From the IMG/VR virus record IMGVR_UViG_3300026097_000017, positions 1-64,000 of that record: a stretch of DNA of 64,000 bases. One strand, given 5' to 3'. Positions 12,335-63,093 of this stretch are shown piece by piece. The translations under genes were made by a program, and so were the position numbers. Origin of the DNA: a virus. The notes under the pieces were generated by a model that was not told where the DNA came from, made no database searches, and saw only the letters and a list, made by a program, of their open reading frames with translations. The first letter of the stretch is position 1; the number at the start of each line of letters is the position of its first letter.

Positions 12335-13330
12335 TTATTTAATGGCTTCCAGTAACCCAACCCACTCCTGAGTTCTCGCCTTCCAGTTGTAGAAAGTATT
12401 GAAGTAAACTCTTTGTAAGTCAAGCAGATCTTGAACTTCATTCTTGTTCAGATTATCGATCGCATGTTTTAAAATACCTGTGAATACATTAGCATGAGCT
12501 TGCTTGTCAGGATGCCAGTTATACATCCAAGCAAAATTAGCACAAGTTTCAGGTAATGCTGCATAGTTGGGGCATACTGTTAAACATCCTGCCGCCATCG
12601 CTTCAATAGCACAAATGCAAGAAGTTTCAGCCCAAGTTGACGGATAGGCAAATATATGTGCCTTAGTAAGAGCACTACGAATAGTAGCATTATCCACAGT
12701 ACCATGATAGTTGATTCCAGGATGTTGCTTACAGAACTCAAAAAGTTCTTGATAAGGTTTGTCGCGCTCAGCCCATCCATAAAGCTCGAAGCTCGAGTAC
12801 ACGTCGAGCTCAATGTCCTGCCTTTCTTCATAAAGTTTGGCGAAAGCCGCAACCAATATGTCAAGACCGCGATGCGGAGTCGAATGGTAAATAAGTCGAA
12901 TTTTATCTTTAGGTTTTTCATGACGCTCAATAGGCTCAATAGCATTTTTTAACACGATACCGTCTTGATATGGAACACCGAGACGATGGAAATATCTTTC
13001 TTGTTGCCAGTTACTGACAAAAACTAATTTAGAAAACTGCTTACGATACTCAGCATCTTTTAAATTCTGCACTTCAGGATCTTCTGCTAAATCATGTAGC
13101 CAAAGAATAGATGGGCGATCAGGATCTATCTCTCGAACGCGAGAACAAATAATCTGAGCCTTGTCCTTCAGGTTTGCTGGTAGCCTGTCATACAGACCAT
13201 ACTTCATCAACTCAGTGCCACCCATGGCATTCTTAGACAACTCATCAGTAGCAACACTTTTAGGTGGTGTTATCTTAAATGAGAATGTGTCGTCAGAACT
13301 AATTGCTCTCGCGCCTGCTTTTACGCTCAT
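12335..13330 (-). CDS. GT4-like GT-B glycosyltransferase
   Basis: 331 aa with a Rossmann-like N half (ILWLHDLAEDPEV, KLVFVSNWQQERYFHRLGVP) and the retaining GT-B donor half: IYHSTPHRGLDILVAAFAKL, FAYPSTWAETSCICAIEAMA, AAGCLTVCPNYAALPETCAN. The E-x7-E motif (ETSCICAIE) typical of family 4 is present. It transfers a hexose from a nucleotide sugar; the acceptor is unknown. Overlaps the upstream gene by 4 nt. Confidence 0.8.
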   Translation of the reverse strand: MSVKAGARAISSDDTFSFKITPPKSVATDELSKNAMGGTELMKYGLYDRLPANLKDKAQIICSRVREIDPDRPSILWLHDLAEDPEVQNLKDAEYRKQFSKLVFVSNWQQERYFHRLGVPYQDGIVLKNAIEPIERHEKPKDKIRLIYHSTPHRGLDILVAAFAKLYEERQDIELDVYSSFELYGWAERDKPYQELFEFCKQHPGINYHGTVDNATIRSALTKAHIFAYPSTWAETSCICAIEAMAAGCLTVCPNYAALPETCANFAWMYNWHPDKQAHANVFTGILKHAIDNLNKNEVQDLLDLQRVYFNTFYNWKARTQEWVGLLEAIK

Positions 13331-14199: not shown

Positions 14200-14874
14200 T
14201 CAGTCATTAACAAATTCTTCCATCATAGGGAAGATAGGTTGTAGTACATTAGCACATTCACGTGCCACTAACATATGTTCTTTTTGAGTACCATTACCCG
14301 ACCTCAAATCAATGTAATGCACCCAAGAACGCAAAGTACCATTCATATATAGACGAGACTTAGTGAGTCCTTCAGGCAGGAGTGCTCGAGCCTGTTCTTT
14401 AGCAATACCCATCTTGATTGCTCTACGATATTCACGGGATGCCATCCACTCAACACGACTCTGAATACGATACCAATCGCGTTCCATTTCTCCATCCTCG
14501 ACTGCTATACTATTCTGTCGATTCTTTAAGCACTGCAGACGTGCTTCACGTTTTTCAAACATCTCATCAAAGTCTTGATCAGGATTAGCATATCGCTGAC
14601 TAAACTCTTGAAATGAGAAAGAACGATGGCGAAGAATCTGCCGAGCAATATCCCGTGTCGTTTCAATCTCTAGACAAGCACTGACCATCTCGAGCGGGGA
14701 CCAGTGTCCATGTTTGACCAAGTATCGTATAAGTTTTTCCGATGTCTCAGTGTTAAGCTGGTTCGATGGATTGGAGACACGGGCTGCATACGCGATGAGC
14801 TCTTGGGCGTTATCGATTCCCTGTGCTGCAAGATCTGCAGGTGGCTGAGACCAGGATATAAGTTTAACATTCAT
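14200..14874 (-). CDS. thyX: Flavin-dependent thymidylate synthase ThyX
   Basis: 224 aa with the ThyX signature RHRSFSFQEFSQRY (RHRxxSxxxxSxRY) near residues 82-95, an N-terminal CLEIETTRDIARQILRHRSF, and a C-terminal ARALLPEGLTKSRLYMNGTL matching the substrate-binding block. ThyX makes dTMP from dUMP using FAD, NADPH and methylene-tetrahydrofolate. In this phage it feeds DNA synthesis alongside NrdA/NrdB. It overlaps the upstream gene by 1 nt. Confidence 0.95.
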   Translation of the reverse strand: MNVKLISWSQPPADLAAQGIDNAQELIAYAARVSNPSNQLNTETSEKLIRYLVKHGHWSPLEMVSACLEIETTRDIARQILRHRSFSFQEFSQRYANPDQDFDEMFEKREARLQCLKNRQNSIAVEDGEMERDWYRIQSRVEWMASREYRRAIKMGIAKEQARALLPEGLTKSRLYMNGTLRSWVHYIDLRSGNGTQKEHMLVARECANVLQPIFPMMEEFVND

Positions 14875-16744: not shown

Positions 16745-17278
16745 TTACCTTTTTAGCATTACTCTCAATTCATTGTGTCCATTCTTCAAAGTGTGAACGG
16801 CATGATCATCTATTTTACATCTATCAAGATGTTTAGTCAACTTTTCTAACCACCACTGTGGCTCTTTTATAATTATATGAGTGTTACGTCCATCAGGAAG
16901 TTTCTTTTGTGCTGGGTAACACGCAATGACCATATAAGCATGGCGATCGATCAGTTTATCCATACCTTGAACAATCTCAGCAAGATACTCAAATTCTAGA
17001 TGTTCCATTACATCAAGACAGAACATCATATCATAAGATTGTGTTGGATATTGGTGATACTTTTCTACTGCTGGATCATATCCATCAACTTGGATATCAG
17101 GAAAATCTTCTTTAAGTTTATTAACAAGATTTCCATGAGCGCAACCATAATCTAGAATAGATTTGGGATTATGCTTGGTAACAAAGTTGAATGCATCTTC
17201 ATATTCATTTAAACGTCCAGCAAACATATTACGCTGATGCATCGATGATAACTGCACTTTATAGTTTTCTGAAATCAT
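16745..17278 (-). CDS. Class I SAM-dependent methyltransferase
   Basis: About 177 aa from ATG 17278, chosen because AGGA lies about 9 nt upstream and the longer frame would read into structured non-coding DNA. The motif I variant SILDYGCAHGNLVNKL, acidic motif II VDGYDPAVEKYH and MFCLDVMEHLEF are typical SAM-methyltransferase blocks. No DNA-methylase NPPY/DPPY or PCQ motif is present, so a small-molecule, glycan or protein substrate is more likely than DNA. Confidence 0.75.
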   Translation of the reverse strand: MISENYKVQLSSMHQRNMFAGRLNEYEDAFNFVTKHNPKSILDYGCAHGNLVNKLKEDFPDIQVDGYDPAVEKYHQYPTQSYDMMFCLDVMEHLEFEYLAEIVQGMDKLIDRHAYMVIACYPAQKKLPDGRNTHIIIKEPQWWLEKLTKHLDRCKIDDHAVHTLKNGHNELRVMLKR

Positions 17279-17286
17279 TACATAAT

Positions 17287-17542
17287 TTCCTAGTGGAGCC
17301 AAGGACAGGAATCGAACATTCCAAAAATAAATGGCGGAACGGGGGGAATCGGGTAACCCCCAAGGAGGTACTATCTGATGTACCTTTCCGAATGGACCTC
17401 CTACAACTCGCAACCTCGCTAAAGGTATGGACGCTATCCCTTTGAGTTTACCTTATCCCCCATCAGCGAGAGATATTCGGTCACGTTCCTATCGGTGTTG
17501 CAATCACCGAACTCGGTTTGTCTAATGATTATTTCATTAGAC
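17287..17542 (-). ncRNA. Structured non-coding locus ending in a tRNA-like 3' end
   Basis: This 250-nt stretch has no believable gene but many paired segments. A perfect 9-bp hairpin (17520-17542) begins 6 nt after the tRNA-Asn CCA. Others are CGGTG/CACCG, GGAGGT (17364-17369) with ACCTCC (17396-17401), and a G5/C5 stem (17342-17361). The end (17294-17318) reads TTCGATTCCTGTCCTTGGC then TCCA, like the T-loop and 3' acceptor half of a tRNA, but no matching 5' half is seen. It could be a degraded tRNA or an uncharacterised RNA. Confidence 0.45.
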
Positions 17543-20400: not shown

Positions 20401-20599
20401 GTTTACCCCATTTAATTTTAGCCCAACCACGTTCGTGGTAGTAATACAGAATTATTTTAGTTATGAACTCCAAGGAAGCGATACCTGTTGCTGCCGCAGG
20501 GTTCCCAGTGATCCACCAACTAATTAAGAATGTGCTAGCAGTTGCTATGAATCTCCAACTAGCAGTCTTAGCTATAGATCTTAGTTTGCTTTCCTTCAT
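20387..20599 (-). CDS. DUF2061-like membrane protein, 70 aa
   Basis: 70 aa with KLRSIAKTASWRFIATASTF, LISWWITGNPAAATGIASLE and the end YYYHERGWAKIKWG. This matches the DUF2061 pattern (WR..AT..T, tGn, E...K..YY.HERxW). Two short hydrophobic helices place it in the membrane. It overlaps the kinase gene by 14 nt and the heptosyltransferase-like gene by 32 nt. Confidence 0.8.
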   Translation of the reverse strand: MKESKLRSIAKTASWRFIATASTFLISWWITGNPAAATGIASLEFITKIILYYYHERGWAKIKWGKHEQS

Positions 20600-21413
20600 G
20601 AAAATCGCATATGTCCTGATAAATTTCTTCTGGATGAATTGAATTCATCGCATCCTTACAATGCGAGCAATTGATTTGCTTTCCGCAAGGTGTTTCTGGG
20701 TGATCATACACATAATATGTTTGATTACGATTACGATAACCTGTAATATTGGGAGTAATTACACCACCACAAATTACAAAGGCACGTTTATTTCTCGCTG
20801 CAGCAAAGTGATGCATTCCACCCTCTGTTGTTACGATTGCCTTTGACCATTCAGCGATAGCGAATGCATCACGAATATTATCAACCTCAATATTGTATGC
20901 ACCCTCAAGTTCTGGCTCATCGTATTCAACACGTCCTGACACATCAGTGTAGTTTCTAGAGGGAACTAATCTAACCACGTGGTATTTTCTACGAACTAGA
21001 TCACACAGTCGCTGCCACTTATCAAACCCCCAAACCTTATTGTCAGCGAGAGTTGTTCTTTTAGCATCAGGATTTAAAATGACAAATGGTTTATTATCTT
21101 GAATGATTCTGTTCAAAGTCACTATTGACCATAAACTTTCTTCATCAGAGATTGAATATGGTGCTGGGATTGGTTCATAAGGTTGATAGTGAATACAACC
21201 ATTACCCCAACCTTTTATATACCAACGATTGCCGTTGGGCTTTTCAGGAACATAAATCTTTTCACAATCAGTAACAGCGTCATGGTCGACAACCCAATTC
21301 AGATCATCCCAAATGATTGATTTTTTTCGGTTAGCATGCACGACAGAGGTTGGGTTCTTTTCCCAAACTTTCCTTGCCTCACCCAACCACATCAAGTCAT
21401 CACCCCAACCCAT
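20568..21413 (-). CDS. GT9/heptosyltransferase-like protein
   Basis: 281 aa. It starts with MGWGDDLMWLGEARKVWEKN, like the glycine-rich N-terminus of ADP-heptose:LPS heptosyltransferases. The C-half has FAIAEWSKAIVTTEGGMHHF followed by AFVICGGVITPNITGYRN, the donor-binding block of GT9. A CSHC motif follows near the end. Likely involved in LPS-type glycan synthesis or its mimicry. Its start overlaps the upstream stop as TAATG. Confidence 0.75.
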   Translation of the reverse strand: MGWGDDLMWLGEARKVWEKNPTSVVHANRKKSIIWDDLNWVVDHDAVTDCEKIYVPEKPNGNRWYIKGWGNGCIHYQPYEPIPAPYSISDEESLWSIVTLNRIIQDNKPFVILNPDAKRTTLADNKVWGFDKWQRLCDLVRRKYHVVRLVPSRNYTDVSGRVEYDEPELEGAYNIEVDNIRDAFAIAEWSKAIVTTEGGMHHFAAARNKRAFVICGGVITPNITGYRNRNQTYYVYDHPETPCGKQINCSHCKDAMNSIHPEEIYQDICDFHEGKQTKIYS

Positions 21414-47171: not shown

Positions 47172-48224
47172 CTATGACTCATCTTCAACTACCTCAGGCT
47201 CAACTTCCTCATTACCATAAGTGAACTCAGCTTGAGCAGCTAGATCTAGTTGATGCAGTAAGTCTTCAGTAAAGTATTTTTCAGGATTCTTATAGATCTC
47301 TTTACCAAACACTTTCGTACCATCAGGCATTTCATATCGAGTAGAAACCTTCTTGATGATATCATATTTCTCAGCAAGTTCAAGTAACCCATAATACCGA
47401 TCAAGTCCATTCGCATAAGACAGGCGAACCTCTACCTGACTATTTTCCTTTGTTAAACGCGACTTATGGAGTTTAGCTTTGATGATATTGCCTACGATAT
47501 CTGTACCTTCTTTGTCCTTTTTCTTAGAAAGATAAACGATTGTAGAAGCAGTATATTTTAACCCTGAACCACCAGACATTTCTTTCATAGGAATATACGA
47601 ACCGACCACATCATAAACATGGTTGGTTACAAGCAATGGTACTTGAATCTTAGCCAATGCTAGGTTAAGTACACGGAACGTTGCCTTGAGTACCTGAGAC
47701 TTGGTCATGTCTCTAGTTTCTTTACCGTCTGCAGTATCTTCAATCTCTTTAGTCGAAGATAACTGACCCAGAGAATCTAGCACCATCATCATTGGTTTGC
47801 GTGAATCTTCAGGCTGGTTTTTATACGTCTCGATGATTTTTAGCGCAGTATGACGAAACTTCTGAATTGTATCTGGTTCTGACACCGCAACTCTTGTAGT
47901 ATCAATACCACGCGACTCCATCATTTCTTTAGTGACTGCAGCCTCAGTATCAAAATAAATGACACCCCCTTCAGGATTATCCTTTAGAAACTGTTGCATC
48001 ACGCCAAGAACAAAGAATGTTTTACCAGTCGCTGATTCACCAGCAAATGTTGTAACTTTATTATTAGGAACACCACCATAGATTGTTCCTGACAACGCAG
48101 CATTTAGGATATATGAACCTGTATCAATATACCCACTAAACTCACCAGACGATTTGCCATCTGCTGCAATATTAGTATCTTCATCTTTAATTTGTGTGAC
48201 AATATCACGGAAAAAATCTGACAT
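47172..48224 (-). CDS. uvsX: UvsX RecA-like recombinase
   Basis: 350 aa. Walker A TFAGESATGKTFFVLG at residues 60-75, Walker B-like MMMVLDSLGQLSS near 147, LVTNHVYDVVGSYIPMKEMS (L1/L2 region) near 200. It is the phage strand-exchange protein used in recombination-dependent replication and repair. It is translated after the DNA-modification pair, with a 1-nt overlap. Confidence 0.93.
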   Translation of the reverse strand: MSDFFRDIVTQIKDEDTNIAADGKSSGEFSGYIDTGSYILNAALSGTIYGGVPNNKVTTFAGESATGKTFFVLGVMQQFLKDNPEGGVIYFDTEAAVTKEMMESRGIDTTRVAVSEPDTIQKFRHTALKIIETYKNQPEDSRKPMMMVLDSLGQLSSTKEIEDTADGKETRDMTKSQVLKATFRVLNLALAKIQVPLLVTNHVYDVVGSYIPMKEMSGGSGLKYTASTIVYLSKKKDKEGTDIVGNIIKAKLHKSRLTKENSQVEVRLSYANGLDRYYGLLELAEKYDIIKKVSTRYEMPDGTKVFGKEIYKNPEKYFTEDLLHQLDLAAQAEFTYGNEEVEPEVVEDES

Positions 48225-49012
48225 TAAAAAAATCCTTCAAGTGTTGCTGTTTCTTCCTGACGACGATCTTTGAGCCGCAGTTCCGCATGCCCTGTAGTTT
48301 CTCTAATATACATCGTACAAAGTTCAGGAAACATTTTGGCGATCCTACTGATTGAGTCATACACATACTCTTTGGTACGCACCTCTTGAAGACCACCTTC
48401 TTCTTTGTAATAATTACTTTTCACAGTATAGTTATCTAATCGGCAAAGCACGTCATTCTTGACATACTGACGGAGACTGTACTCATAGTCCTCACCATGA
48501 TTTGTCACTCTTGCCAAATAATCATCATGCTCTACGATCACACCGAACATCGATGCAATCACATAGCAGAGTTTAGTGTAAACACGATCTTTCATAAAGA
48601 ACGCATTTGAAGCTGCATAGATGCCGAACGTTTTAGCACCAACCTGCTCAGCTTCAGTGAACCCTCTTATTATAATCTCTTTTTCCAAATTGTCAATAGG
48701 TTCCAGCTTTTTATCATTCTTTCTTTGAACTTCTTGAACGTCATCATCAAACATCATCAAATATGTGCCTTCTGGATAATACCGTTCAATCCAGTTTCTT
48801 TGGGCTCCGATTGTAGGAACACCCTTTACAATATTTTGCCCATAAGGATTATCTTTTAGCGCATTTGAATATGTTTCAAACTCTTTATCATCAGCCACAA
48901 ATACAGTGACACGCTCTGGATCAATATTATGGTGTTCAAATACTTTGAACGTCTTTTCTTGAATTGTTTTCGTACGCTTATAGGATGGCACTGCAATTTT
49001 ATAATCAATCAT
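48224..49012 (-). CDS. TET/JBP-associated-type DNA glycosyltransferase (TAGT) with clamp-tail
   Basis: 262 aa. A GT-A-like fold: IDYKIAVPSYKRTKTIQEKT at the N-terminus, VTVFVADDKEF, YLMMFDDDVQEVQ with the DxD metal site near residue 89, GIYAASNAFFMK and NHGEDYEYSLRQ. This pattern matches what I recall of glycosyltransferases coded beside TET/JBP dioxygenases in phages. The C-terminus ends EETATLEGFF, close to the dioxygenase end and the polymerase tail. It likely puts a sugar on hydroxymethylated pyrimidines. Overlaps both neighbours by 1 nt. Confidence 0.75.
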   Translation of the reverse strand: MIDYKIAVPSYKRTKTIQEKTFKVFEHHNIDPERVTVFVADDKEFETYSNALKDNPYGQNIVKGVPTIGAQRNWIERYYPEGTYLMMFDDDVQEVQRKNDKKLEPIDNLEKEIIIRGFTEAEQVGAKTFGIYAASNAFFMKDRVYTKLCYVIASMFGVIVEHDDYLARVTNHGEDYEYSLRQYVKNDVLCRLDNYTVKSNYYKEEGGLQEVRTKEYVYDSISRIAKMFPELCTMYIRETTGHAELRLKDRRQEETATLEGFF

Positions 49013-50442
49013 TAAAAAAATCCTTCTAGACTCGCTTTTTCTTCAACTGCTTCAGGATGATATTTTGCTAGTGTATCACGTCCACCGTGATGCTCTAGAT
49101 ATTGATACCATTCTTTAGAATCCCACATTCCTGGACTCACACCGTTCCAGTATGGACGCCATAGTACATGGTGCTCATTCAAACGACGATCATCAACAAA
49201 CTGTCTTCGCAGTTTTTCATAATCATAAGAACCAAGCTGTAACATATCCTCGCGGAAATAAAACACCAAAGACATACGGAGGAAATCATCTTCACCTGAA
49301 TCAGGTGCTTCAATCGGAGTGTTCGCATGAATCACTCGCATATTATCAATCAGCAACAAATCCCCTGGACGAACATTGATTGCCGCACGAACTTCAGGAG
49401 CAACCAAATAACCACCTTTCCAACTCTTGCCTTCTTTAGTGACAACAGTCAGATTAGAGTATCCCTCATTCAAAGAACCTGCATCACGATGACTTGCCAT
49501 TCGTGCATTACGATCTTTAGTTGTAGTATTTACAGTAATTGTAGTCAGCGTAGTATCTTCGCCTATCAGGAATTTGTTGTCAATCGAGTCGGCACATTTT
49601 TTCTGCAACGCATAACGTTCAGGGAGCATCCGAGCAAACTCTTTATCAAGTTTCCTAGCAAATGGATAGCACTTTTCAAACTTCTCTAAGTTGTGTTCAG
49701 TGTAAGAAGTTGCTCGCCCATAAGGAATCCGAGGATATCTACCATAATACCCAGCGATACCTGACCAAATGGGAGTCGCATAAGAGGTTGCCGAGATCAT
49801 AGTCTTAGCAATTTTCAAAGCATACTTAGCTGCGTCATCTACTGACATTTCAGCGAGTCGTTTCATCGCCTCATCGAAAAAGCCTGTGTAGTTTTCAAAC
49901 TCGGCTTCTACCTTCGTACGCAACCAAACACCGCCACGTGTTTCATACTTTTCAGTTTTATGACGCTCTACAATTTCTTCTATCGGATCAGAGCCATCGA
50001 TATTTTGAGGTGAGCCATCAATGTAATAATCAAGAATATCTTGTTGAAAAGGTGTCACCCAATCACGATTACCTGACTGCTCTGATCTTGGTCCAGCGGC
50101 AAGTCCTCGGTTATTAGATTCAACTGCTGCATCAAACAATCCTTCATACGCACCTTTCTGTTCTTCTTCGGTGAATACGTTTTTACGGAACTTGAATGCA
50201 ATTTGCTGTTCACCTAGACAACCAATACATTGCCCATTACAATCTGTAGATTTGACTAAATCACAATCAGGTGGAAGATAAAAATCTGCATCATTGTCGA
50301 TTAGAATATCGTAATCATTCTCGTCTACATATTTACCGAGAAGATCTTCTTTGTTGTCAGCGAACAAGGCAATATAAACGTCTTGACCTTCGTCACCTTT
50401 ATACTTCTGCCAAGATCTGCCGCCAATGGTTACTGTTTCCAT
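49012..50442 (-). CDS. TET/JBP-like 2-oxoglutarate/Fe(II) DNA dioxygenase with clamp-tail
   Basis: 476 aa from ATG 50442, chosen because GGAG lies 9 nt upstream and just after promoter P12. Residues 310-400 hold the dioxygenase core: MASHRDAGSL (H318-x-D320 iron site), NLTVVTKEG, GGYLVAPEVRAAINVRPGDL, VIHANTPI (distal His372) and RMSLVFYFRED (2-oxoglutarate Arg389). This is the TET/JBP pattern, which oxidises 5-methylcytosine or thymine in DNA. A Cys-rich segment (CDLVKSTDCNGQCIGC) lies near residues 60-75. The end KASLEGFF resembles a clamp-binding tail. Confidence 0.85.
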   Translation of the reverse strand: METVTIGGRSWQKYKGDEGQDVYIALFADNKEDLLGKYVDENDYDILIDNDADFYLPPDCDLVKSTDCNGQCIGCLGEQQIAFKFRKNVFTEEEQKGAYEGLFDAAVESNNRGLAAGPRSEQSGNRDWVTPFQQDILDYYIDGSPQNIDGSDPIEEIVERHKTEKYETRGGVWLRTKVEAEFENYTGFFDEAMKRLAEMSVDDAAKYALKIAKTMISATSYATPIWSGIAGYYGRYPRIPYGRATSYTEHNLEKFEKCYPFARKLDKEFARMLPERYALQKKCADSIDNKFLIGEDTTLTTITVNTTTKDRNARMASHRDAGSLNEGYSNLTVVTKEGKSWKGGYLVAPEVRAAINVRPGDLLLIDNMRVIHANTPIEAPDSGEDDFLRMSLVFYFREDMLQLGSYDYEKLRRQFVDDRRLNEHHVLWRPYWNGVSPGMWDSKEWYQYLEHHGGRDTLAKYHPEAVEEKASLEGFF

Positions 50443-50465
50443 ATAAGTTCTCCATGTATGCAATC

Positions 50466-50494
50466 ATTATAACTTATTTACACAAACTTATCAA
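50466..50494 (-). promoter_or_regulatory. Sigma70-type early promoter P12 (dioxygenase)
   Basis: TTGATA (50489-50494), a 17-nt spacer and a perfect TATAAT (50466-50471), 24 nt upstream of the dioxygenase ATG. The -35 region lies in the last codons of the AT-hook membrane gene. It gives the DNA-modification pair and uvsX their own transcript. Confidence 0.8.
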
Positions 50495-51314
50495 GCAGTT
50501 TTTTCTTTTCTACTTTAGGTGGACGTCCACGCTTTTTAGGTTTGTGTTGTTCAATCAACTGTTGAGTTCTCACTTTTTTACGCTGTTCCTTCAGCGATAT
50601 ACTAGCAGCTATCACAAGCAGCACTGCTAATGGATCAAATACAAAAATAATAATCAGAATGACAAATCGTACTGCCTTCTCTAAAACTTGCTGATCAGGA
50701 TTGTCACCAAATATCAATTCTGCAATGAACGCAAGAGGACCGACTTCCGCTTTAAAAGCTGACACTTGAAGCTGAATCTGTGCCAACTCGTCTTGAAGCG
50801 AGATGATCTTATTGGACGCTTGATTGATGGATTCCTGGATTTTCTCACGTTCCTCAGTCTGACTTTCTCTTGCCTCAAGTCCCTTAGAAACTGCCCCAAG
50901 CTCGATATATCTTTGTAATGCATCATCAAGCTGTTCCAGAATGGCTTCATTCCGCTCGATTTCCCGATTCTCTCTCTGAATTCTGGTTTCAATCTGTGTC
51001 GCTTTGATGGTAGACTCATTTAAACCTGCTCCCTGATCAATATGTGCTTTCGATAAAAATCCAAAGATACCCATTGATGTGATAAACATCAACAGCACAA
51101 CTGCACCAGTGAGATAATATTTCAATGCTCTAGGTGCAACTTCCCAGTTTTGATGCAGCCATGCCGCAGTCAAAAGTTTACCTGCTTCCAACACGATACC
51201 CATGATCACAATCGCAGTAAAACTCGCAGCGAATATAGCTGTCAATCCAATGATTGAGTAATACGCAGCTACAGTAGCAATAGCAATCGCTGTAATTAAA
51301 GTTGCTATAACCAT
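50478..51314 (-). CDS. Membrane protein with AT-hook-like tail, 278 aa
   Basis: 278 aa. Three N-terminal TM spans (residues 1-25, 28-50, 65-88), a long coiled coil (95-185), one or two more spans (about 215-245), then a basic tail with KPKKRGRPPKVEKKK near residues 258-272. The RGRP core flanked by basic residues is an AT-hook, which binds AT-rich DNA in the minor groove. It may tether phage DNA to the membrane. It overlaps the 100-aa gene by 1 nt. Confidence 0.7.
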   Translation of the reverse strand: MVIATLITAIAIATVAAYYSIIGLTAIFAASFTAIVIMGIVLEAGKLLTAAWLHQNWEVAPRALKYYLTGAVVLLMFITSMGIFGFLSKAHIDQGAGLNESTIKATQIETRIQRENREIERNEAILEQLDDALQRYIELGAVSKGLEARESQTEEREKIQESINQASNKIISLQDELAQIQLQVSAFKAEVGPLAFIAELIFGDNPDQQVLEKAVRFVILIIIFVFDPLAVLLVIAASISLKEQRKKVRTQQLIEQHKPKKRGRPPKVEKKKLLDKFV

Positions 51315-51616
51315 TAACTTTCGCTTCTTGTGATTGCTAAGATATCCTCGATCTTCTCTTCAATAATTTGTTTACGTCCTGGCCAATAAATGTATTCTTT
51401 GTCAGATGTGTTTAGCAGATTGACTAACAAAGGCATTATCATTTGTTCAACCATTTGTAGTTTTTCGGCAGCAGATCTTTCTAAAGTATTGCGAACGCTG
51501 TCAACAACTTCTTCAATCTTGGTGTCAGTAGCAGCATTGTATTCTGCTTCACTAACTGCACTAAAACCAAAATCGTTATCATTTGACAAATATTCCTGTG
51601 GTATTTTAATAGCCAT
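51314..51616 (-). CDS. Conserved helical protein after gp43, 100 aa
   Basis: Start at 51616 (MAIKIPQEYLSNDNDFGFSA), which overlaps the gp43 stop as TAATG. Helical middle (EEVVDSVRNTLERSAAEKLQ) and an end KQIIEEKIEDILAITRSES. I recall small proteins like this next to the polymerase in marine T4-like phages. Function unknown. Confidence 0.7.
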   Translation of the reverse strand: MAIKIPQEYLSNDNDFGFSAVSEAEYNAATDTKIEEVVDSVRNTLERSAAEKLQMVEQMIMPLLVNLLNTSDKEYIYWPGRKQIIEEKIEDILAITRSES

Positions 51617-54090
51617 TAGAAAAAGCTCTCCAGTGTACTTTGTTTCTCTACATCCCAACCAATCTTAGAGGTGATCACCTTTAGTGGTTCTAGGAATGAC
51701 TTTTCGAATTGTGTATCATAATCAATATACTTATTTAAGTCAAGCTCTTCTGGCATGTTAGACAGAATAGAGATGACATTTTCACCGATACTATTTGGCG
51801 TTTTCAAATAACAGAATTTAATTTTCTCGCCTTCTTGGATCGGCTGATATTTTTTAGTCAATCCTTTTTTGTCAAGAAGATGATTAAACAGCAACGCACC
51901 TCTAACATGAATCGGTGTTCCTGATGAGTAGATATCTGAAGAATCAGCATACTTTGCTAATCCTTTAACTCCTCTCGGGAAAGCCACATCTTCAAACGGC
52001 ATCTTTTTAAACTTCTCACGGCTATCGGTAACAAACTGATGAAGTAATGATTCGTCGCCCTCCATAATAAGTTGCAGTGCTTCTTTAATCATTTCACGGC
52101 AAGCATATGGAGTTGAAGATTTTACAGCCTCAATACCCATCATCTTGAGTTTCGGTTCATTATACCTCACACCCTCAGAATCATGAACATTCAGAATGTA
52201 TCTTTTCTTAGCAGTCCAGATACCTTTATCAGCAATAACTTCTCGAGCCATCACCATCTTGTTCTGATAGGCTCCCATATAATTCGCAAGCTCTTCATAG
52301 GACTCAGTAATAAATTTCTCAAATCTTTCTTCACAAACAGTATTCAAAAAATCGACTGGACTTTTAGGATTGAACTTTTTGACCAACTCATCCATGCGGA
52401 CATAGATAGAATCAGTATCAATCGCAATCACATAATCTTCATCAGTGCCCAGCAACTTGTTCATGTACTGGTTTACTTTCTTTTCAATCCATCTGATTGA
52501 GAGTTGTCCTGAGATGGTGATTGCTTCTCCGAGTTTGACGTCGAAGAATCTGAAGTATTTGTTTCCGATTGCTCCATAGGCTGAGTTGAGGGAGATTTTT
52601 TTTGCCATCTGGATGTTATGGTATTTAGATATTGAGTTGCGTAGGCGAATCTTCTCCTTCTCATCAGCTGTACCTTTCTTGCTTTCCAGTTCCTTCTGCG
52701 CATTGATCATTTCCTTCTTATAGAAAACACGATCATTGTACATCTTCTGCATCAATTCAGGCAAGAACCCTTGGAAGTCCTTGCGGAAATAGTGACCATT
52801 TGCCGCCAAGCAGTATTCAGTTTCATTAGGATATTGTTCAGTCAAAAGTTTATTAACAGAGGTGTCAATATGTTTGCCTTCTACCAAAGTATCAGGCGAA
52901 ATATTATACTGCATCATTAAGTGAGGATACAGACTATTTAGGTCAAAGGAGACAACCCAGTCGTGCATTCCGACTTGCGGTTCTTTTACATAAGCACCTT
53001 CAATCTGACCATCTTTATCCCGATCCTCCATTTGAGGAACAACAACATTTTTAGAAAGTAGATGGTTATGAATGATTGTGTCCCACATCCGAACCTGTGT
53101 CATCACATCATTTAAATTCACCTTTGCGTCATACGCAAGAGCAAGCGCAAGTTCAATCAGCTTCAGCTTATCGTCTAGTTTCTGAACCAACTCAACGTCT
53201 TTGATGTTGTATTCAATAAACTTCTGATAGTCTTCTTTGTATAACTGGTGAAGAGAGTTGTATTCAGAATAATCAATCTTCTTTTCACCGAGCTCTACGA
53301 AAGCGATATTATCCAACCGATATGATTCTTGCTGAGTATAAGTAAACTTCTTATACATTTCAAGATAATCCAAACTAACGATGCCGCAAAGAACATACGC
53401 ATAGTTCTGCCTGTTCATCAGTCTCACGATGCGCTCTTCAACCTGCCCCCAAGGAGAAAGTTTTTTAGCCATGCGTTCATCAAACTTCTTTTCAATGCGA
53501 CGATACAGATAAGGAATATCAAAGAACTGAGTGTTCCAGCCTGTGATGATATCGACATCCATTTTCTGCCACATATCAAGGAATTTGAGTAACAGATCAT
53601 TCTCATTATTACAACGAATGTAACGGACATCTTCCCTATGCTGCTTGTATTCGCCTATACCGAGAACCCAATAAACTCCTTTAAAGTATATCGTGATTGC
53701 AGTGATCGGCTCAGCAACGTCCGCAGGATCAGGGAAACCAGACTCAGAGCCAACCTCAATATCAATATTGGCGACTCTAATTAAGTTTACATCGTAATCA
53801 ACTTTAGGATATTGTTCATTGATAAAACAATATTCATATTTGTTAGACCCATAGATTTCAAAGTTTTGTATATCACCATATTTGGCAATAAATTCTTTGG
53901 CATCTGAAATGGTGCCTTGTTTGACAGGTTCAACAGGAATACCTTTAACTGTTTTGAAGTTAGAAGGTTTGTTGGTCGGGATGTAGAGTGTTGGTGAGTA
54001 AGGAACACGTTCGTGGAACCGCTTTCCGTTGCGATAACCACGAACGTAGATTTTATCACCTCTACGAAGAAAGTTCGTATAAAATTCCAT
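51616..54090 (-). CDS. 43: DNA polymerase gp43 (family B)
   Basis: 824 aa, close to the T4 length. Exonuclease motifs: VANIDIEVGSESGFPDP (ExoI), WNTQFFDIPYL (ExoII). Polymerase motifs: DLNSLYPHLMMQYN (A), KKISLNSAYGAIGNKYFR (B) and IDTDSIYVRMD (C). The C-terminus QSTLESFF fits a sliding-clamp peptide (QxxLxxFF). It copies the genome at the fork with gp45. Driven by P9. Confidence 0.97.
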   Translation of the reverse strand: MEFYTNFLRRGDKIYVRGYRNGKRFHERVPYSPTLYIPTNKPSNFKTVKGIPVEPVKQGTISDAKEFIAKYGDIQNFEIYGSNKYEYCFINEQYPKVDYDVNLIRVANIDIEVGSESGFPDPADVAEPITAITIYFKGVYWVLGIGEYKQHREDVRYIRCNNENDLLLKFLDMWQKMDVDIITGWNTQFFDIPYLYRRIEKKFDERMAKKLSPWGQVEERIVRLMNRQNYAYVLCGIVSLDYLEMYKKFTYTQQESYRLDNIAFVELGEKKIDYSEYNSLHQLYKEDYQKFIEYNIKDVELVQKLDDKLKLIELALALAYDAKVNLNDVMTQVRMWDTIIHNHLLSKNVVVPQMEDRDKDGQIEGAYVKEPQVGMHDWVVSFDLNSLYPHLMMQYNISPDTLVEGKHIDTSVNKLLTEQYPNETEYCLAANGHYFRKDFQGFLPELMQKMYNDRVFYKKEMINAQKELESKKGTADEKEKIRLRNSISKYHNIQMAKKISLNSAYGAIGNKYFRFFDVKLGEAITISGQLSIRWIEKKVNQYMNKLLGTDEDYVIAIDTDSIYVRMDELVKKFNPKSPVDFLNTVCEERFEKFITESYEELANYMGAYQNKMVMAREVIADKGIWTAKKRYILNVHDSEGVRYNEPKLKMMGIEAVKSSTPYACREMIKEALQLIMEGDESLLHQFVTDSREKFKKMPFEDVAFPRGVKGLAKYADSSDIYSSGTPIHVRGALLFNHLLDKKGLTKKYQPIQEGEKIKFCYLKTPNSIGENVISILSNMPEELDLNKYIDYDTQFEKSFLEPLKVITSKIGWDVEKQSTLESFF

Positions 54091-55844: not shown

Positions 55845-56249
55845 TTACTTTTTCTTGCCAATATTGTACTTGGCAACTAAATTCCACTCTTCACGTTCCT
55901 TGTAAGGAAGGATTTTAATTTGTGAGAGTGGGCTCGTTGGTGTAGCCGTTTTTGACGGATCCACCAAATCAATCAACTCCCATTCGGCGAGAAGATTGAT
56001 TACAGTATTCCGTCTGGCCATGTCATCTTCATTTGGCCAGTTAGTTGGTTTACCATCGAGAGCAAACAGTTCTTTAAAATGAACTATAAAATATCTGCCT
56101 TGCTTGTGTAGAATATGACAAGATTGAAATAATGTCTTATCTTTCTTTGAAGCAATGCCGATGCGAGTCAAAGTCTCTCGCACTTTCAAAAAGTCATCCT
56201 GTTCTTTTAATTTTATCTCAATCATTGAAGACATATCAAAGATTGTCAT
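55845..56249 (-). CDS. regA: RegA translational repressor
   Basis: 134 aa matching T4 RegA closely: MIEIKLKEQDDFLKVRETLT, RIGIASKKDKTLFQSCHILH, KQGRYFIVHFKELFALDGKP and a C-terminal WNLVAKYNIGK. RegA binds start regions of early mRNAs and represses their translation. The start at 56249 overlaps the gp62 stop and adds eight residues compared with T4; Met9 matches the T4 start. Confidence 0.95.
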   Translation of the reverse strand: MTIFDMSSMIEIKLKEQDDFLKVRETLTRIGIASKKDKTLFQSCHILHKQGRYFIVHFKELFALDGKPTNWPNEDDMARRNTVINLLAEWELIDLVDPSKTATPTSPLSQIKILPYKEREEWNLVAKYNIGKKK

Positions 56250-56620
56250 TTCATTCCACCTTTATCAAGTTTTGTTTTTATTAATTTTATTTGTTCTTTG
56301 GTGAGAACTTTCTCAGCGTCACATGCCTTAGTGTAAGAATAATTATAATATTCCATAAGCATTTCTACTGTGGCAGACTTACTTTTTTTATGCCATCCGA
56401 AACGTTTTCTTTTACGAACAGTATTTAGTAAAAACTCATATTGTAATTTATTGTCAATATGGTGGTAGAAATTCATCTCATTGCCATGATGCACAGTATC
56501 AATATGCATTGACATGGCACGATTAACAAGGAAGGAAGAATATTCTTTCTCCGCTTGCTTGTCAGTCATCAAATCCTTTTTACTTTCATTGATAGAATTT
56601 ACAAAATCAAATGGATTCAT
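56246..56620 (-). CDS. 62: Clamp loader small subunit gp62
   Basis: About 124 aa from ATG 56620 (MNPFDFVNSINESKKDLMTD), overlapping the upstream stop by 4 nt. The pattern and position between gp44 and regA match T4 gp62, which with gp44 loads the gp45 clamp onto primed DNA. It is shorter than T4 gp62 (187 aa), as in other marine T4-like phages. Confidence 0.85.
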   Translation of the reverse strand: MNPFDFVNSINESKKDLMTDKQAEKEYSSFLVNRAMSMHIDTVHHGNEMNFYHHIDNKLQYEFLLNTVRKRKRFGWHKKSKSATVEMLMEYYNYSYTKACDAEKVLTKEQIKLIKTKLDKGGMK

Positions 56621-56787
56621 AATCCCAATAATCCCCAACCGTGATTGGCTACAGCATTTAGGATAATAAAAATCCCAACAAAAAGCTCGAACACCACAAT
56701 AATAGTACGAACGATTGCAACTCTGTCAGCTTTACTGTCATCATCATATGCCTTAGATCCTAATGCTTTAGCCCAAATATTCCACAT
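56617..56787 (-). CDS. Small membrane protein between gp44 and gp62, 56 aa
   Basis: Start at 56787 (MWNIWAKALGSKAYDDDSKA), overlapping the gp44 stop as TAATG. One TM span (IVVFELFVGIFIILNAVANH) ends the protein. Insertion of a membrane protein inside the clamp-loader operon is unusual compared with T4 itself. Function unknown. Confidence 0.7.
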   Translation of the reverse strand: MWNIWAKALGSKAYDDDSKADRVAIVRTIIVVFELFVGIFIILNAVANHGWGLLGL

Positions 56788-57725
56788 TATTGAAACGCAC
56801 ATTCTGACATAATTTCAGTCAGACATGCTACGAGATTAACTTCTTGATCCGCAACGAATGCAGACTTGTAAGAATACTCAGCGACTATCAAGACCAAAGA
56901 TGGTACTGATTCAGGTTTCATGTAATCAGTTGCGGAGTCATATAGTTTACGATACATCATGACAGGATCATTGTCAATATTTTCCACAACCCATTTACGA
57001 ACTTCTTTGAAGTTCCTTTCTTTCATGTGTTGTATTAGACTTTTGATAGATACATCTACTAAATTTACTAGAATACCTGTGTCTATCTTTCCTGACACTG
57101 AATACCGCTGTAATTCATTCAGCACCCGACGGAAGTCAGGGAAGTGCTTCATGATTACCTGAGCAACAACCTTTTCTTCATACTCAATATGTTCTTGAGA
57201 AAGAATCCCATGAATACGCTTCATCAGCTGAGCTGCTAATTTTGGCTTTTCATTGTTAGGAATCTTGAACTCTATTACTGAGCACCTTGAATGGAGAGGA
57301 GATATAATGCGGTTAGCAAAATTACAAGTAAGTATAAACCCACAATTATTACTAAACTCCTCCATAAAGTTGCGAAGAGCAGGCTGAGTAGATTGGGGAT
57401 TGAGATAATCAGCCTCATCAAGGATGACATACTTACGACCACCATCAAAACTGACAGTGCTAGCAAAATTACGAATGTCATTCCGAAGAGTATCGATGTT
57501 TCCATTCATTGAACCATTGATAATAATATAATCACAACCGAGTTCTTCTAGCATGGCGCGAGCAACTGTAGTTTTGCCCATACCTGCTCCACCTGTGAGA
57601 AGAAGGTTAGGAACGTTTCCCTGTTTAATGAACTCTTTAAACGTTTCCTTCATCTCAGGTGAGAGAATCGTATCATCCACTGTGCGTGGGCGATACTTCT
57701 CTACCCATAAAAAATCATCTCTCAT
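56787..57725 (-). CDS. 44: Clamp loader ATPase gp44
   Basis: 312 aa AAA+ protein: Walker A LLTGGAGMGKTTVARAML, Walker B KYVILDEADYLNPQ, then ILTCNFANRIISPLHSRCSV with sensor 1 and the SRC arginine-finger motif. With gp62 it opens and loads the gp45 clamp using ATP. Confidence 0.95.
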   Translation of the reverse strand: MRDDFLWVEKYRPRTVDDTILSPEMKETFKEFIKQGNVPNLLLTGGAGMGKTTVARAMLEELGCDYIIINGSMNGNIDTLRNDIRNFASTVSFDGGRKYVILDEADYLNPQSTQPALRNFMEEFSNNCGFILTCNFANRIISPLHSRCSVIEFKIPNNEKPKLAAQLMKRIHGILSQEHIEYEEKVVAQVIMKHFPDFRRVLNELQRYSVSGKIDTGILVNLVDVSIKSLIQHMKERNFKEVRKWVVENIDNDPVMMYRKLYDSATDYMKPESVPSLVLIVAEYSYKSAFVADQEVNLVACLTEIMSECAFQ

Positions 57726-57742
57726 AATATAGACCTCAAAAA

Positions 57743-58411
57743 TTAAGAATTATACTGGGAATTAGATTCTAAAGCAATCCAGTATTCTAAATTTGCATCA
57801 ACTGATTTAAAATGCGAGATACCCTTTGAAGAGATCTGTACATTATAATCACCGTTGATCAGTTTGAGGTTTTCAGTTTTAAAGATCATGCGGAACTCAG
57901 CATCAGTTTCACCAACTGTCATGGAGAATGTGTCACTTGAGTCATTCTTAACATCAAGAGCAGTCAACTTGATAGTTTCACCATCACCCACTACAGCGAT
58001 TTCAGGCAAACTCATCACACCACAAGCACGTTGTACTTTCTGCAAAATATCATGACTCAGCTGGAACTGAATCTCTGCCTCAGGGAAGTTGGGACTCTTC
58101 TCTGGTGGCTTAGTGATGATAGATTCATCAGCATAACCATAGCGAGTCTTTTGCCCATTGTTATCTACAATCTCTAGACTAGTGTCATTCACATTCACTT
58201 CTGGCTCTTCGAACAAGTCAAGAACAGAAATGAAACGATTTAGTTCGTAGATACCAAAGTTGCGTTCAAAGTTCTCATCAACCTGCGCTTTGGCTAGAAT
58301 ATTTTTTCTAGGAGAAACTGTTGCCAGCGTATTTCCTTCTTTGAACATCATACTAGAATTAATAGTAGAAAAGTTCTTCAGGATGTTAATTGTATTTTCA
58401 CTAATTTTCAT
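57743..58411 (-). CDS. 45: Sliding clamp gp45
   Basis: About 222 aa (MKISENTINILKNFSTINSS) with the clamp fold pattern and a C-terminal FKSVDANLEYWIALES. It forms a trimeric ring that holds gp43 on DNA and, in T4, activates late transcription through gp55/gp33. It is the likely receptor for the SLEGFF-type tails seen in gp43 and the DNA-modification enzymes. Confidence 0.93.
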   Translation of the reverse strand: MKISENTINILKNFSTINSSMMFKEGNTLATVSPRKNILAKAQVDENFERNFGIYELNRFISVLDLFEEPEVNVNDTSLEIVDNNGQKTRYGYADESIITKPPEKSPNFPEAEIQFQLSHDILQKVQRACGVMSLPEIAVVGDGETIKLTALDVKNDSSDTFSMTVGETDAEFRMIFKTENLKLINGDYNVQISSKGISHFKSVDANLEYWIALESNSQYNS

Positions 58412-58418
58412 CATTACC

Positions 58419-61499: not shown

Positions 61500-62542
61500 T
61501 CGAGATCTAGTGCCTCATGGTATAAGTTTATCAATAATCCTTCTAACTTTTTCTGATTAGAAGTTTGCACACCGCTGACATATTTCTTCAAAATAGTCAT
61601 CGTATCTTCAGCTTCATTTACCAAATCATCATCATTGGTCTGATCAATATTCATATGGTCGTCCACCACTGCAACATCATAAACTCCACTACGATATAAC
61701 TTATCAAGGAAAATGTCAAACGCTGTGGGATCTTTTTTTGTTCGGACGATAACTTTCACAAAACACCCTTCATACAAATCGTATTCATGCTTTTGTGGTT
61801 TGCTGTCATCATAAATGATTTTGTAGAATAACCGATGAGGATTACGAACTTCCACCAAGTCTCCTGTATCAGTGTCAAAAATATGAAACCCACGCCAGTC
61901 ATTATAGTCTGACCATGTCATTTCATAAGGAGAGCCAAGATAAGTGAGATTGTCTCGAGACGATTTGTGATGAAAATGACCAGAAAATACTCTGTCGAAT
62001 TTACTGAATACATTAGTTTGTAGTCCATGATGATTTACCGATCCTCTATACATTTCAAACCCTTGCACTTCTAAATGACCAAATGCATACTTAGCATCAG
62101 TCTTGTTCAAAAGCTCAAAAGTTTCTTCTTCATTTTCAGGGCAGATCCAAGGAATCATCATCAATTTAGTATTGTCAATCGTGACTTCCTGTGGATCCAT
62201 TACTAGATTAAAACCATACTCAGATTTAGAATACAGTTCACGCAAAGCATTTACATGTATCGTGTTCTTGTAATATGAGTCATGATTTCCCACAATAAAA
62301 TGCGCTTCGATACCACGTTCATGGATCGGAAGCATCATATCATCTTCTAAATTTCTGGCAGTAACATAATTGATTTGTTTTCTTTTGTCAACTAGATCAC
62401 CAAGATGAATTAAATGTTTAATATTATGCTTGTCAAGATATGGGAAAAAGAACTCATGGTAGAACTTCTTCATATGATTCGCAAACACAATATTATCATT
62501 GCGCACACCAAAGTGTGTATCAGTAATTAAAGCAACTTTCAC
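61496..62542 (-). CDS. 47: Recombination nuclease subunit gp47 (SbcD/Mre11-like)
   Basis: 348 aa with Mre11-type metallophosphoesterase motifs: LITDTHFGVRNDN, IHLGDLVDKRKQINY, IVGNHDSYYKN and VFSGHFHHKSS. It is the nuclease partner of gp46 and overlaps it by 4 nt. Confidence 0.95.
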   Translation of the reverse strand: MKVALITDTHFGVRNDNIVFANHMKKFYHEFFFPYLDKHNIKHLIHLGDLVDKRKQINYVTARNLEDDMMLPIHERGIEAHFIVGNHDSYYKNTIHVNALRELYSKSEYGFNLVMDPQEVTIDNTKLMMIPWICPENEEETFELLNKTDAKYAFGHLEVQGFEMYRGSVNHHGLQTNVFSKFDRVFSGHFHHKSSRDNLTYLGSPYEMTWSDYNDWRGFHIFDTDTGDLVEVRNPHRLFYKIIYDDSKPQKHEYDLYEGCFVKVIVRTKKDPTAFDIFLDKLYRSGVYDVAVVDDHMNIDQTNDDDLVNEAEDTMTILKKYVSGVQTSNQKKLEGLLINLYHEALDLE

Positions 62543-63093
62543 TCTGCGTCATCCTCGATGAAGTTTTCTATTCCTACTTTCTTTTTCGCCTTTTTACGCT
62601 TTTCAAGATTAGACTCAAATGTTACCATAAAGTCATCCATATATTCCTGAGCATAATCATTATGAAATGGGCGATTCATTTCTGGAGTTGCTTCTTCAGC
62701 CTGAACCATCTCCATAATTGTAATATTCTTAGTGGAACTGTATTTGACGTAGAGCTGTTTCTTTTCTTTTTGAATCCTGCGTAAAAATGCATAATAGATT
62801 ATCTGCGTGAAATACGCAAAAGGATTACTACTTTTGTCAGGATTAAAATTATTGATGTATTGAACACAGTTCTCCACACCATCAGAGATCATATCTTCTC
62901 TAAATTGATAGCTTATGAAGTTTGGCTTGGTGGATAATCTTCGAGCGATCATCAAAAAACATTCACCCACATAATTGGGAATGATTGGTTTTTCCTTGCC
63001 TTCTTTTTCAGCCTGTTTTACTTTTTCTCGATACTCGATGAGTGAGTTGAGAAACTCTTTGTTGTTGATATAATGAGTTGATTTTCGTGCCAC
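62539..63093 (-). CDS. 55: Late-transcription sigma factor gp55
   Basis: 184 aa: THYINNKEFLNSLIEYREKV at the N-terminus, YQFREDMISDGVENCVQYIN and NPFAYFTQIIYYAFLRRIQK in the middle, the sigma-2-like helices of T4 gp55. It directs RNA polymerase to late promoters, coupled to the gp45 clamp. The C-terminus (GIENFIEDDAE) is short and acidic, with IENFI as a possible clamp contact. Confidence 0.9.
   Translation of the reverse strand: MARKSTHYINNKEFLNSLIEYREKVKQAEKEGKEKPIIPNYVGECFLMIARRLSTKPNFISYQFREDMISDGVENCVQYINNFNPDKSSNPFAYFTQIIYYAFLRRIQKEKKQLYVKYSSTKNITIMEMVQAEEATPEMNRPFHNDYAQEYMDDFMVTFESNLEKRKKAKKKVGIENFIEDDAE

Follow-up and report, generated by a model that had tools for sequence, protein, structure and literature searches.

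Unrelated phage DNA-modifying enzymes carry a polymerase-type C-terminal tail predicted to bind the gp45 sliding clamp

We analysed a 64,000-nucleotide stretch (positions 1 to 64,000, hereafter the window) of the 80-kb IMG/VR virus record IMGVR_UViG_3300026097_000017, in which T4-like genes for gp45, gp62, RegA, UvsX, gp55 and others are present. Three minus-strand genes of the window share a C-terminal tail: the DNA polymerase gp43 (VEKQSTLESFF), a predicted TET/JBP-type 2-oxoglutarate (2OG)-Fe(II) DNA dioxygenase (VEEKASLEGFF; hereafter TET) and a TET-associated glycosyltransferase (QEETATLEGFF; TAGT). The tail of gp43, EKQSTLESFF, lies within the final 33 bases before the stop codon, and among minus-strand frames of at least 60 amino acids in the window only these three end in LxxFF. 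An earlier reading of this DNA, made without database searches (the sequence-only reading), had given all three C-termini and their positions exactly. In an alignment, KKASLFD of the RB69 polymerase stands opposite KQSTLES of the window gp43; the T4 gp43 C-terminus is EEKASLDFLFG. In T4, gp43, gp55 and gp33 each end in a hydrophobic-acidic clamp epitope that follows a divergent linker, and the three epitopes are interchangeable in vitro (PMC2988020); in RB69, the gp43 peptide occupies a hydrophobic pocket of gp45 (PDB 1b8h, PMC3012046).

The identity of the two enzymes is supported by domain matches and predicted structures. The dioxygenase matches Pfam Tet_JBP at 2.1e-14, its predicted double-stranded beta-helix fold resembles NgTET1, CcTET and TET2, and its iron ligands H325, D327 and H379 (HxD...H) are invariant in the TET alignment; by predicted 2OG-Fe(II) fold and ligands it is a member of the TET/JBP family. 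Its annotated TTG start is probably too far upstream, homology beginning only at about residue 5-8. The transferase, whose gene adjoins that of the TET, matches PF20691 at 1e-16, above the cut-off, and has a GT-A-like predicted fold; it is not a member of the T4 alpha-glucosyltransferase (alpha-GT) family (GT-B, PF11440), which it could at most resemble in function.

Table 1. Tailed proteins and T4-like genes in the window
Feature	Position	Strand	Basis
gp43 family B DNA polymerase	51616..54090	-	Pfam DNA_pol_B, phrog_262; alignment of its tail to the clamp-binding gp43 tail of RB69/T4
TET/JBP-type 2OG-Fe(II) DNA dioxygenase (predicted), tail EKASLEGFF	49012..50463	-	Tet_JBP; fold nearest NgTET1/CcTET/TET2
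TET-associated glycosyltransferase (TAGT, PF20691), tail ETATLEGFF	48224..49012	-	TAGT match; GT-A-like fold
gp45 sliding clamp, presumed docking partner	57743..58414	-	gp45-slide_C, phrog_223; homologous to RB69/T4 gp45
gp44 clamp-loader ATPase	56787..57725	-	Open reading frame between gp45 and gp62; from gene order and AAA+ sequence
gp62 clamp-loader subunit	56246..56638	-	phrog_225, 3.4e-39
gp55 late sigma factor	62539..63093	-	phrog_234, 8.3e-59; C-terminus VGIENFIEDDAE looks by eye like the hydrophobic-acidic clamp epitope of T4 gp55, PSLDFLYEAND

Such a tail might have arisen by chance or by descent from one ancestral enzyme, and a hydrophobic C-terminus is nothing unusual, with the loosest form of the motif found in ~2% of background open reading frames (ORFs). 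By contrast, the strict motif [STNDG][LIM]xxFF(x) occurs in 2/5220 antisense-type ORFs of related loci. With this background, two further matches among ~110 genes that fall on exactly the two DNA-modifying enzymes are not due to chance. TET, TAGT and gp43 are mutually unrelated, indicating that the common tail was not inherited from one ancestor; the earlier claim that independent enzymes end in the same peptide holds. Chance and common descent are refuted by the unrelated folds, the motif background and a permutation test of matching to the phage's own polymerase (below), and we give them practically no weight. Recent copying of tail DNA among the three genes is ruled out by their differing codons (CTG GAG AGC TTT TTC in gp43, CTA GAA GGA TTT TTT in the dioxygenase and CTT GAA GGA TTT TTT in the glycosyltransferase).

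Scans of viral contigs yielded ~190 related loci, among which we counted distinct C-termini, scoring a tail as L-x-x-[FL]-[FLM] followed by at most two further residues. The tail is kept in 124/131 TET, 52/63 TAGT and 24/26 gp43 C-termini; the two gp43 exceptions are the near variants IEDFFG and LSAFFTNV, with which the gp43 count becomes 26/26. In an alignment of 35 TET sequences, L479 is invariant and E480, F482 and F483 are conserved at 90% or more, with variable residues just upstream. In the TAGT alignment, the core ends at AELRLKD and is followed by a linker of variable length and then the tail; in both families the linker differs in length and in sequence. Consistent with selection acting on the peptide, codons are free to vary at the fixed residues: between them, the homologues use every one of the six Leu codons and both codons for Phe. 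In AlphaFold2 models, TAGT residues 251-262 have confidence scores (predicted local distance difference test, pLDDT) of ~46-52 and the TET end residues of ~54, with the tail beyond the core, suggesting that the tail is no confident part of either fold. The sequence-only reading had asked for an alignment of the tails in homologues and had named a tail buried in the fold as a refuting case; we find a tail conserved after a divergent linker, and the predicted models place it outside both folds. The tail thus resembles a T4-type epitope in being an extreme C-terminal, hydrophobic-acidic peptide like that of the polymerase, separated by a divergent linker and predicted to lie outside the folded domain. 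L041 offers a further case. Its gp43 and TAGT are 97% and 95% identical to those of the window, but its TET belongs to another clade (48%) and still ends STLEDFFA; by sequence comparison, the TET gene of the L041 line is a recombinational replacement at the same place with the tail kept. Strict covariation of tails inside the LxxFF lineage is suggestive only, since FL stands in all three L046 proteins, a pattern that L071 and L072 do not follow. In one subgroup (L231, L232, L060-L062 and L076), TET and TAGT both end ...SLEDLF or TLGDLF.

All three window tails run into the TAATG of the next gene (48220-49015, 51610-51660), and in TET and TAGT a GAAGGA stands at Shine-Dalgarno distance. The tail could accordingly be a by-product of translational coupling, in which the E-G-F-F codons provide the following gene with a GAAGGA Shine-Dalgarno sequence and a T-rich spacer, and 78 tailed TETs overlap the next start and have a Shine-Dalgarno-like run. 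However, 39/55 tailed TAGTs lack such a run and the next start is >40 nt away in 20, and the same is true of gp43. Moreover, codons differ at every fixed tail residue, and in other phages the tail changes as a protein together with the polymerase ([KR]LW, NLLSMM), with no Shine-Dalgarno sequence readable there. Because the tail is present where the next gene is distant or the run is absent, coupling shapes codon choice in the window and not the peptide. We reject coupling as the general cause of the tail, though it is seen in the window, and consider this explanation very improbable.

We next related the tail to the presence of a gp45 clamp in 60 IMG/VR records, which may be fragments. The clamp was detected in 30 records, 30/30 of them with a tailed TET or TAGT, and in 0/11 tailless records, which include one frameshifted and one truncated gene (Fisher 3e-4). 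We compared 14 named phages: nine have gp45 together with polymerase-like tails on TET, on TAGT, on ADDT (an amino acid:DNA transferase) or on a kinase, and the five in which gp45 was not detected (P12024L, HTVC112P, Serendipitous, Altadena and S-CBWM1) have no LxxFF tail. S-CBWM1 (L004), a 139-kb Synechococcus phage, has a TET and TAGT pair but lacks a match to gp45 or to a family B polymerase, and its TET is tailless. Homologues without the tail, which the sequence-only reading had named as a refuting case, do exist, but only where no T4-like clamp was found. Like an epitope for gp45, the tail is conserved as protein and occurs only alongside a gp45-type clamp, with many records being fragments and the S-CBWM1 TAGT ambiguous. 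We considered ...DLF tails as a mark of gp45-less phages and dropped this, since the L232 record has gp45; the polymerase C-terminus of this phage lies beyond the contig, leaving no polymerase end against which to compare its ...DLF tail.

No bacterial-type beta clamp (PF02768) was found in 22 tailless or DLF-tailed records. In two loci in which gp45 was not detected, other C-termini were observed: in Nonlabens phage P12024L (L260; 3095-3853, 3855-4490), the end is NQLEIF for TAGT and QQTLF for the methyltransferase next to it, and in L246 (7661-8503, 8479-9294) the ends are NQETLFS and NQKTLFDMI for two paralogues of TAGT. These NQLEIF, QQTLF and NQxTLF ends resemble the bacterial beta-clamp motif QLxLF, and gp45-less phages may rely on the beta clamp of their host.

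The presence of gp45 does not by itself single out gp45 as the docking site, since gp45 records normally hold a whole T4-like replisome, and the clamp loader and gp43 contact the face of gp45 too. The tail could thus dock on the gp44/62 loader, gp32, the helicase or gp43. Docking on gp43 is unlikely because gp43 bears the same tail, and the known ligand of gp43/gp55/gp33-type tails is gp45 (PMC2988020; RB69 complex 1b8h, PMC3012046). The pocket positions (RB69 Y39, I107, F109, W199 and V217) are also still hydrophobic for the most part in all lineages with the tail, with W199 replaced by S and V217 by an aromatic residue, but the basic residues R32 and K204 are not kept; the exchange in the window gp45 is W199 to S and V217 to W. 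We regard another replisome partner as improbable. The gp45 pocket of Vibrio phage D506 has Y39, P107, V109, V199 and F217, and the pockets of the [KR]LW-tailed Vibrio phages (L301, L303 and L304) may have co-evolved with the tail.

In other gp45-bearing phages the tail sequence differs, yet the modification enzymes match the polymerase of the same phage. In Vibrio phage D506 (L301), the polymerase ends ARKLW, the 5-hydroxymethyldeoxyuridine (5-hmdU) kinase HMUD2 TKKLW, ADDT TRKLW and HMUDK TKRLW. We examined Vibrio phages 1.255.O (L303) and K475 (L304) and Klebsiella phage KpS110 as a check after this pattern had been seen. Both Vibrio phages have the same set (polymerase ARKLW, HMUD2 KTK[KR]LW, ADDT KTRKLW, HMUDK TKRLW), and in KpS110 the polymerase ends VNLLAMMGKKG, ADDT VNLMSLMKK and HMUD2 SNVLAIMLRK. 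The corresponding ends are VNLLSMMGKR, VNLLSMLGGKK and SNLLAMLLRNKK in phiMAM1, and VNLLSMMGKKG (polymerase) and VNLMSLLKR (ADDT) in Vi01. In phiW-14, the polymerase end AKLGAFFV and the ADDT end TGLGSFFR are both of LGxFF type, and in Cr30 the polymerase ends ADLSSLFD and TAGT SDLSKLF. The [KR]LW tail is unlike every other clamp peptide met in this analysis. We scored 22 enzyme tails, ungapped, against all polymerases; these include a phiW-14 phrog_800 protein later found to be no known modification enzyme. The true enzyme-polymerase pairing totals 537, compared with 322 +/- 46 for shuffles (p=5e-5), and it ranks first among 720 pairings once relatives are merged into six lineages. With ADDT alone, 10/720 pairings reach the true score, a count in which swaps among three close Ackermannviridae are expected. 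This matching of tails to the phage's own polymerase is the strongest evidence we have from sequence, and goes beyond what the sequence-only reading claimed.

The tail is also found on further proteins of related contigs: ADDT (MGLEEFF and variants), GNAT acetyltransferases (NTLEAFF), GT1 glycosyltransferases (VATLDSFFG), a D12 DNA methyltransferase of phage C48C1 (STLDAFFG) and a second TAGT subfamily (DLP_6, SDLSSFFN). For most of these carriers, DNA bases are the expected substrate. The earlier observation of a tail on two modification enzymes is confirmed but understated the range, which takes in more enzyme families; the observation is real, and stronger and wider than first noted. An HNH protein in L021/L022, which is no modification enzyme, also bears the tail. 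In phiW-14 (L296 3330-4133, beside the polymerase), a 267-aa phrog_800 protein described as a terminase small subunit ends THGLGGFFKG; given its likeness to the phage's own polymerase tail, AKLGAFFV, it appears to be a clamp client outside the modification enzymes.

These last two carriers bear on the possibility that the tail binds gp45 for other ends, such as recruitment to late transcription or packaging, in both of which gp45 takes part, or stability or localisation without effect on modification. In favour of this, gp55 and gp33 use the same epitope in late transcription (PMC2988020), and the alpha/beta share in T4 is little affected by the contact between alpha-GT and gp45 (PMC13216743). 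However, the tail is concentrated on enzymes whose expected targets are DNA bases (TET, TAGT, ADDT, HMUDK, HMUD2, GNAT, GT1 and methyltransferase), and it is missing from the pool enzymes that we examined in T4 and two Vibrio phages: the thymidylate-synthase-like and deoxynucleoside monophosphate kinase enzymes of 1.255.O and K475, and the T4 dCMP hydroxymethylase. Binding to gp45 for other ends is unlikely, although less so than the explanations considered above.

Other enzymes of the window are without clamp-like tails, namely a ThyX-type thymidylate synthase, two more glycosyltransferases and a class I methyltransferase (14200-14874, 12335-13330, 20568-21413, 16745-17413), and no C5-cytosine methyltransferase was recognised among the window ORFs scanned, the record being partial. 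Between gp43 and TET, a 278-aa protein (50478-51314) has no Pfam or PHROG match, is 83% conserved in L041 and is probably membrane-associated, judging from its sequence. We do not claim a clamp tail on this protein (end KKLLDKFV), because the L076 homologue has no such end.

Taking these observations together, we propose, with a probability of roughly 0.8, that the shared tail is a clamp-binding peptide for clamp-tethered, post-replicative modification. A tail of the gp43/gp55/gp33 kind, joined through a flexible linker to the C-terminal end of enzymes acting on DNA after synthesis, would let TET and TAGT dock on gp45 while the ring trails the polymerase. Methylcytosine in nascent DNA would then be oxidised by TET and glycosylated by TAGT, processively, and modification would be complete before host nucleases act. 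The sequence-only reading had placed modification behind the fork by way of gp45, and this gains from a tail that is conserved, predicted to lie outside the folds, tied to gp45, tracking the polymerase and present on unrelated enzymes; gp45 binding, processive and replication-coupled action, timing and value against restriction are what we infer from these data.

Several points weigh against this proposal. S-CBWM1 has no gp45, but its TAGT ends HELEDLLP, which is ambiguous; the Cr30 TET ends merely ...GATLF; many gp45-negative records are fragments; and the basic pocket residues of RB69 gp45 (R32 and K204) are not conserved in tailed lineages. For T4, a 2026 paper (PMC13216743) concludes that promoter strength and enzyme activity, not gp45 contact, mainly set the share of alpha-glucose. 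The C-termini of T4 alpha-GT (which ends DIITK) and beta-glucosyltransferase (beta-GT) are without a clamp tail, indicating that post-replicative glucosylation does not generally depend on one.

A broader version of the proposal, to which we incline only slightly, is that such phages run a replisome-tethered hypermodification assembly line, in which base-acting enzymes copy the tail of their own polymerase, pool enzymes do not, and gp45-less phages may use the host beta clamp. On the same narrow balance, the base-acting enzymes would comprise TET, TAGT, ADDT, 5-hmdU kinases, acyl- and glycosyltransferases and some methyltransferases.

Tethering of DNA modification to a replication clamp has a precedent in eukaryotic maintenance methylation, where a PIP box tethers enzymes such as DNMT1 to PCNA. 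DNMT1 is likewise a DNA-modifying enzyme held on a replication clamp by a short peptide, but its PIP box lies elsewhere in the protein, whereas the phage tail is a copy of the polymerase's C-terminal tail. The gp43, gp55 and gp33 epitopes of T4 and RB69 are alike in being a short peptide after a divergent linker, on several proteins per phage, and the gp43 tails of T4 (KASLDFLFG) and RB69 (KKASLFDMF) are nearly identical in sequence to the tails described here. They serve polymerase processivity and late transcription, whereas here the carriers are predicted base-modifying enzymes. Phage TET-TAGT cytosine hypermodification cassettes likewise have adjacent Tet_JBP and PF20691 genes, but the homologues in the gp45-less phages examined end at the core, with no tail. 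The thymine hypermodification enzymes of Vi01-like phages and phiW-14 (HMUDK, HMUD2 and ADDT) are also encoded by gp45-bearing phages and have tails matched to their own polymerase, but differ in their 5-hmdU chemistry and in the tails themselves ([KR]LW, NLLSMM and LGxFF).

The suggestion of the sequence-only reading that replication-coupled modification through the clamp is undescribed was too strong. In vitro binding to gp45 is described for T4 alpha-GT (Sommer et al. 2004; confirmed by pull-down in PMC13216743) but not for beta-GT, which does not bind, and a model of replication-coupled glucosylation has been proposed for T4 alpha-GT. T4 alpha-GT is thus a clamp-binding phage DNA transferase for which replication coupling has been proposed, but it is a GT-B enzyme with no tail, whereas here a polymerase-type tail is found on TET, TAGT, ADDT, kinases and others. 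We found no report of polymerase-type tails on modification enzymes in a literature search that did not take in two central papers on phage TET and base modification. Clamp tethering as a principle was already known, as was one phage DNA transferase that binds the clamp; a polymerase-matched tail on whole sets of enzymes appears to be new.

Known hypermodification enzymes act after DNA synthesis, yet modification comes close to completion, and the puzzle is how phages cover a whole genome before host restriction sets in. If our proposal is correct, a polymerase-type tail gives a simple answer to this puzzle, namely that the enzymes ride behind the fork, and it would account for the conserved yet apparently unstructured C-termini of such enzymes. 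On that view, the contact between T4 alpha-GT and gp45 would belong to a broader strategy and differ in its interface. The match to a phage's own polymerase tail would, in addition, be a sequence rule for finding modification enzymes and clamp-client proteins among phage genes of unknown function.

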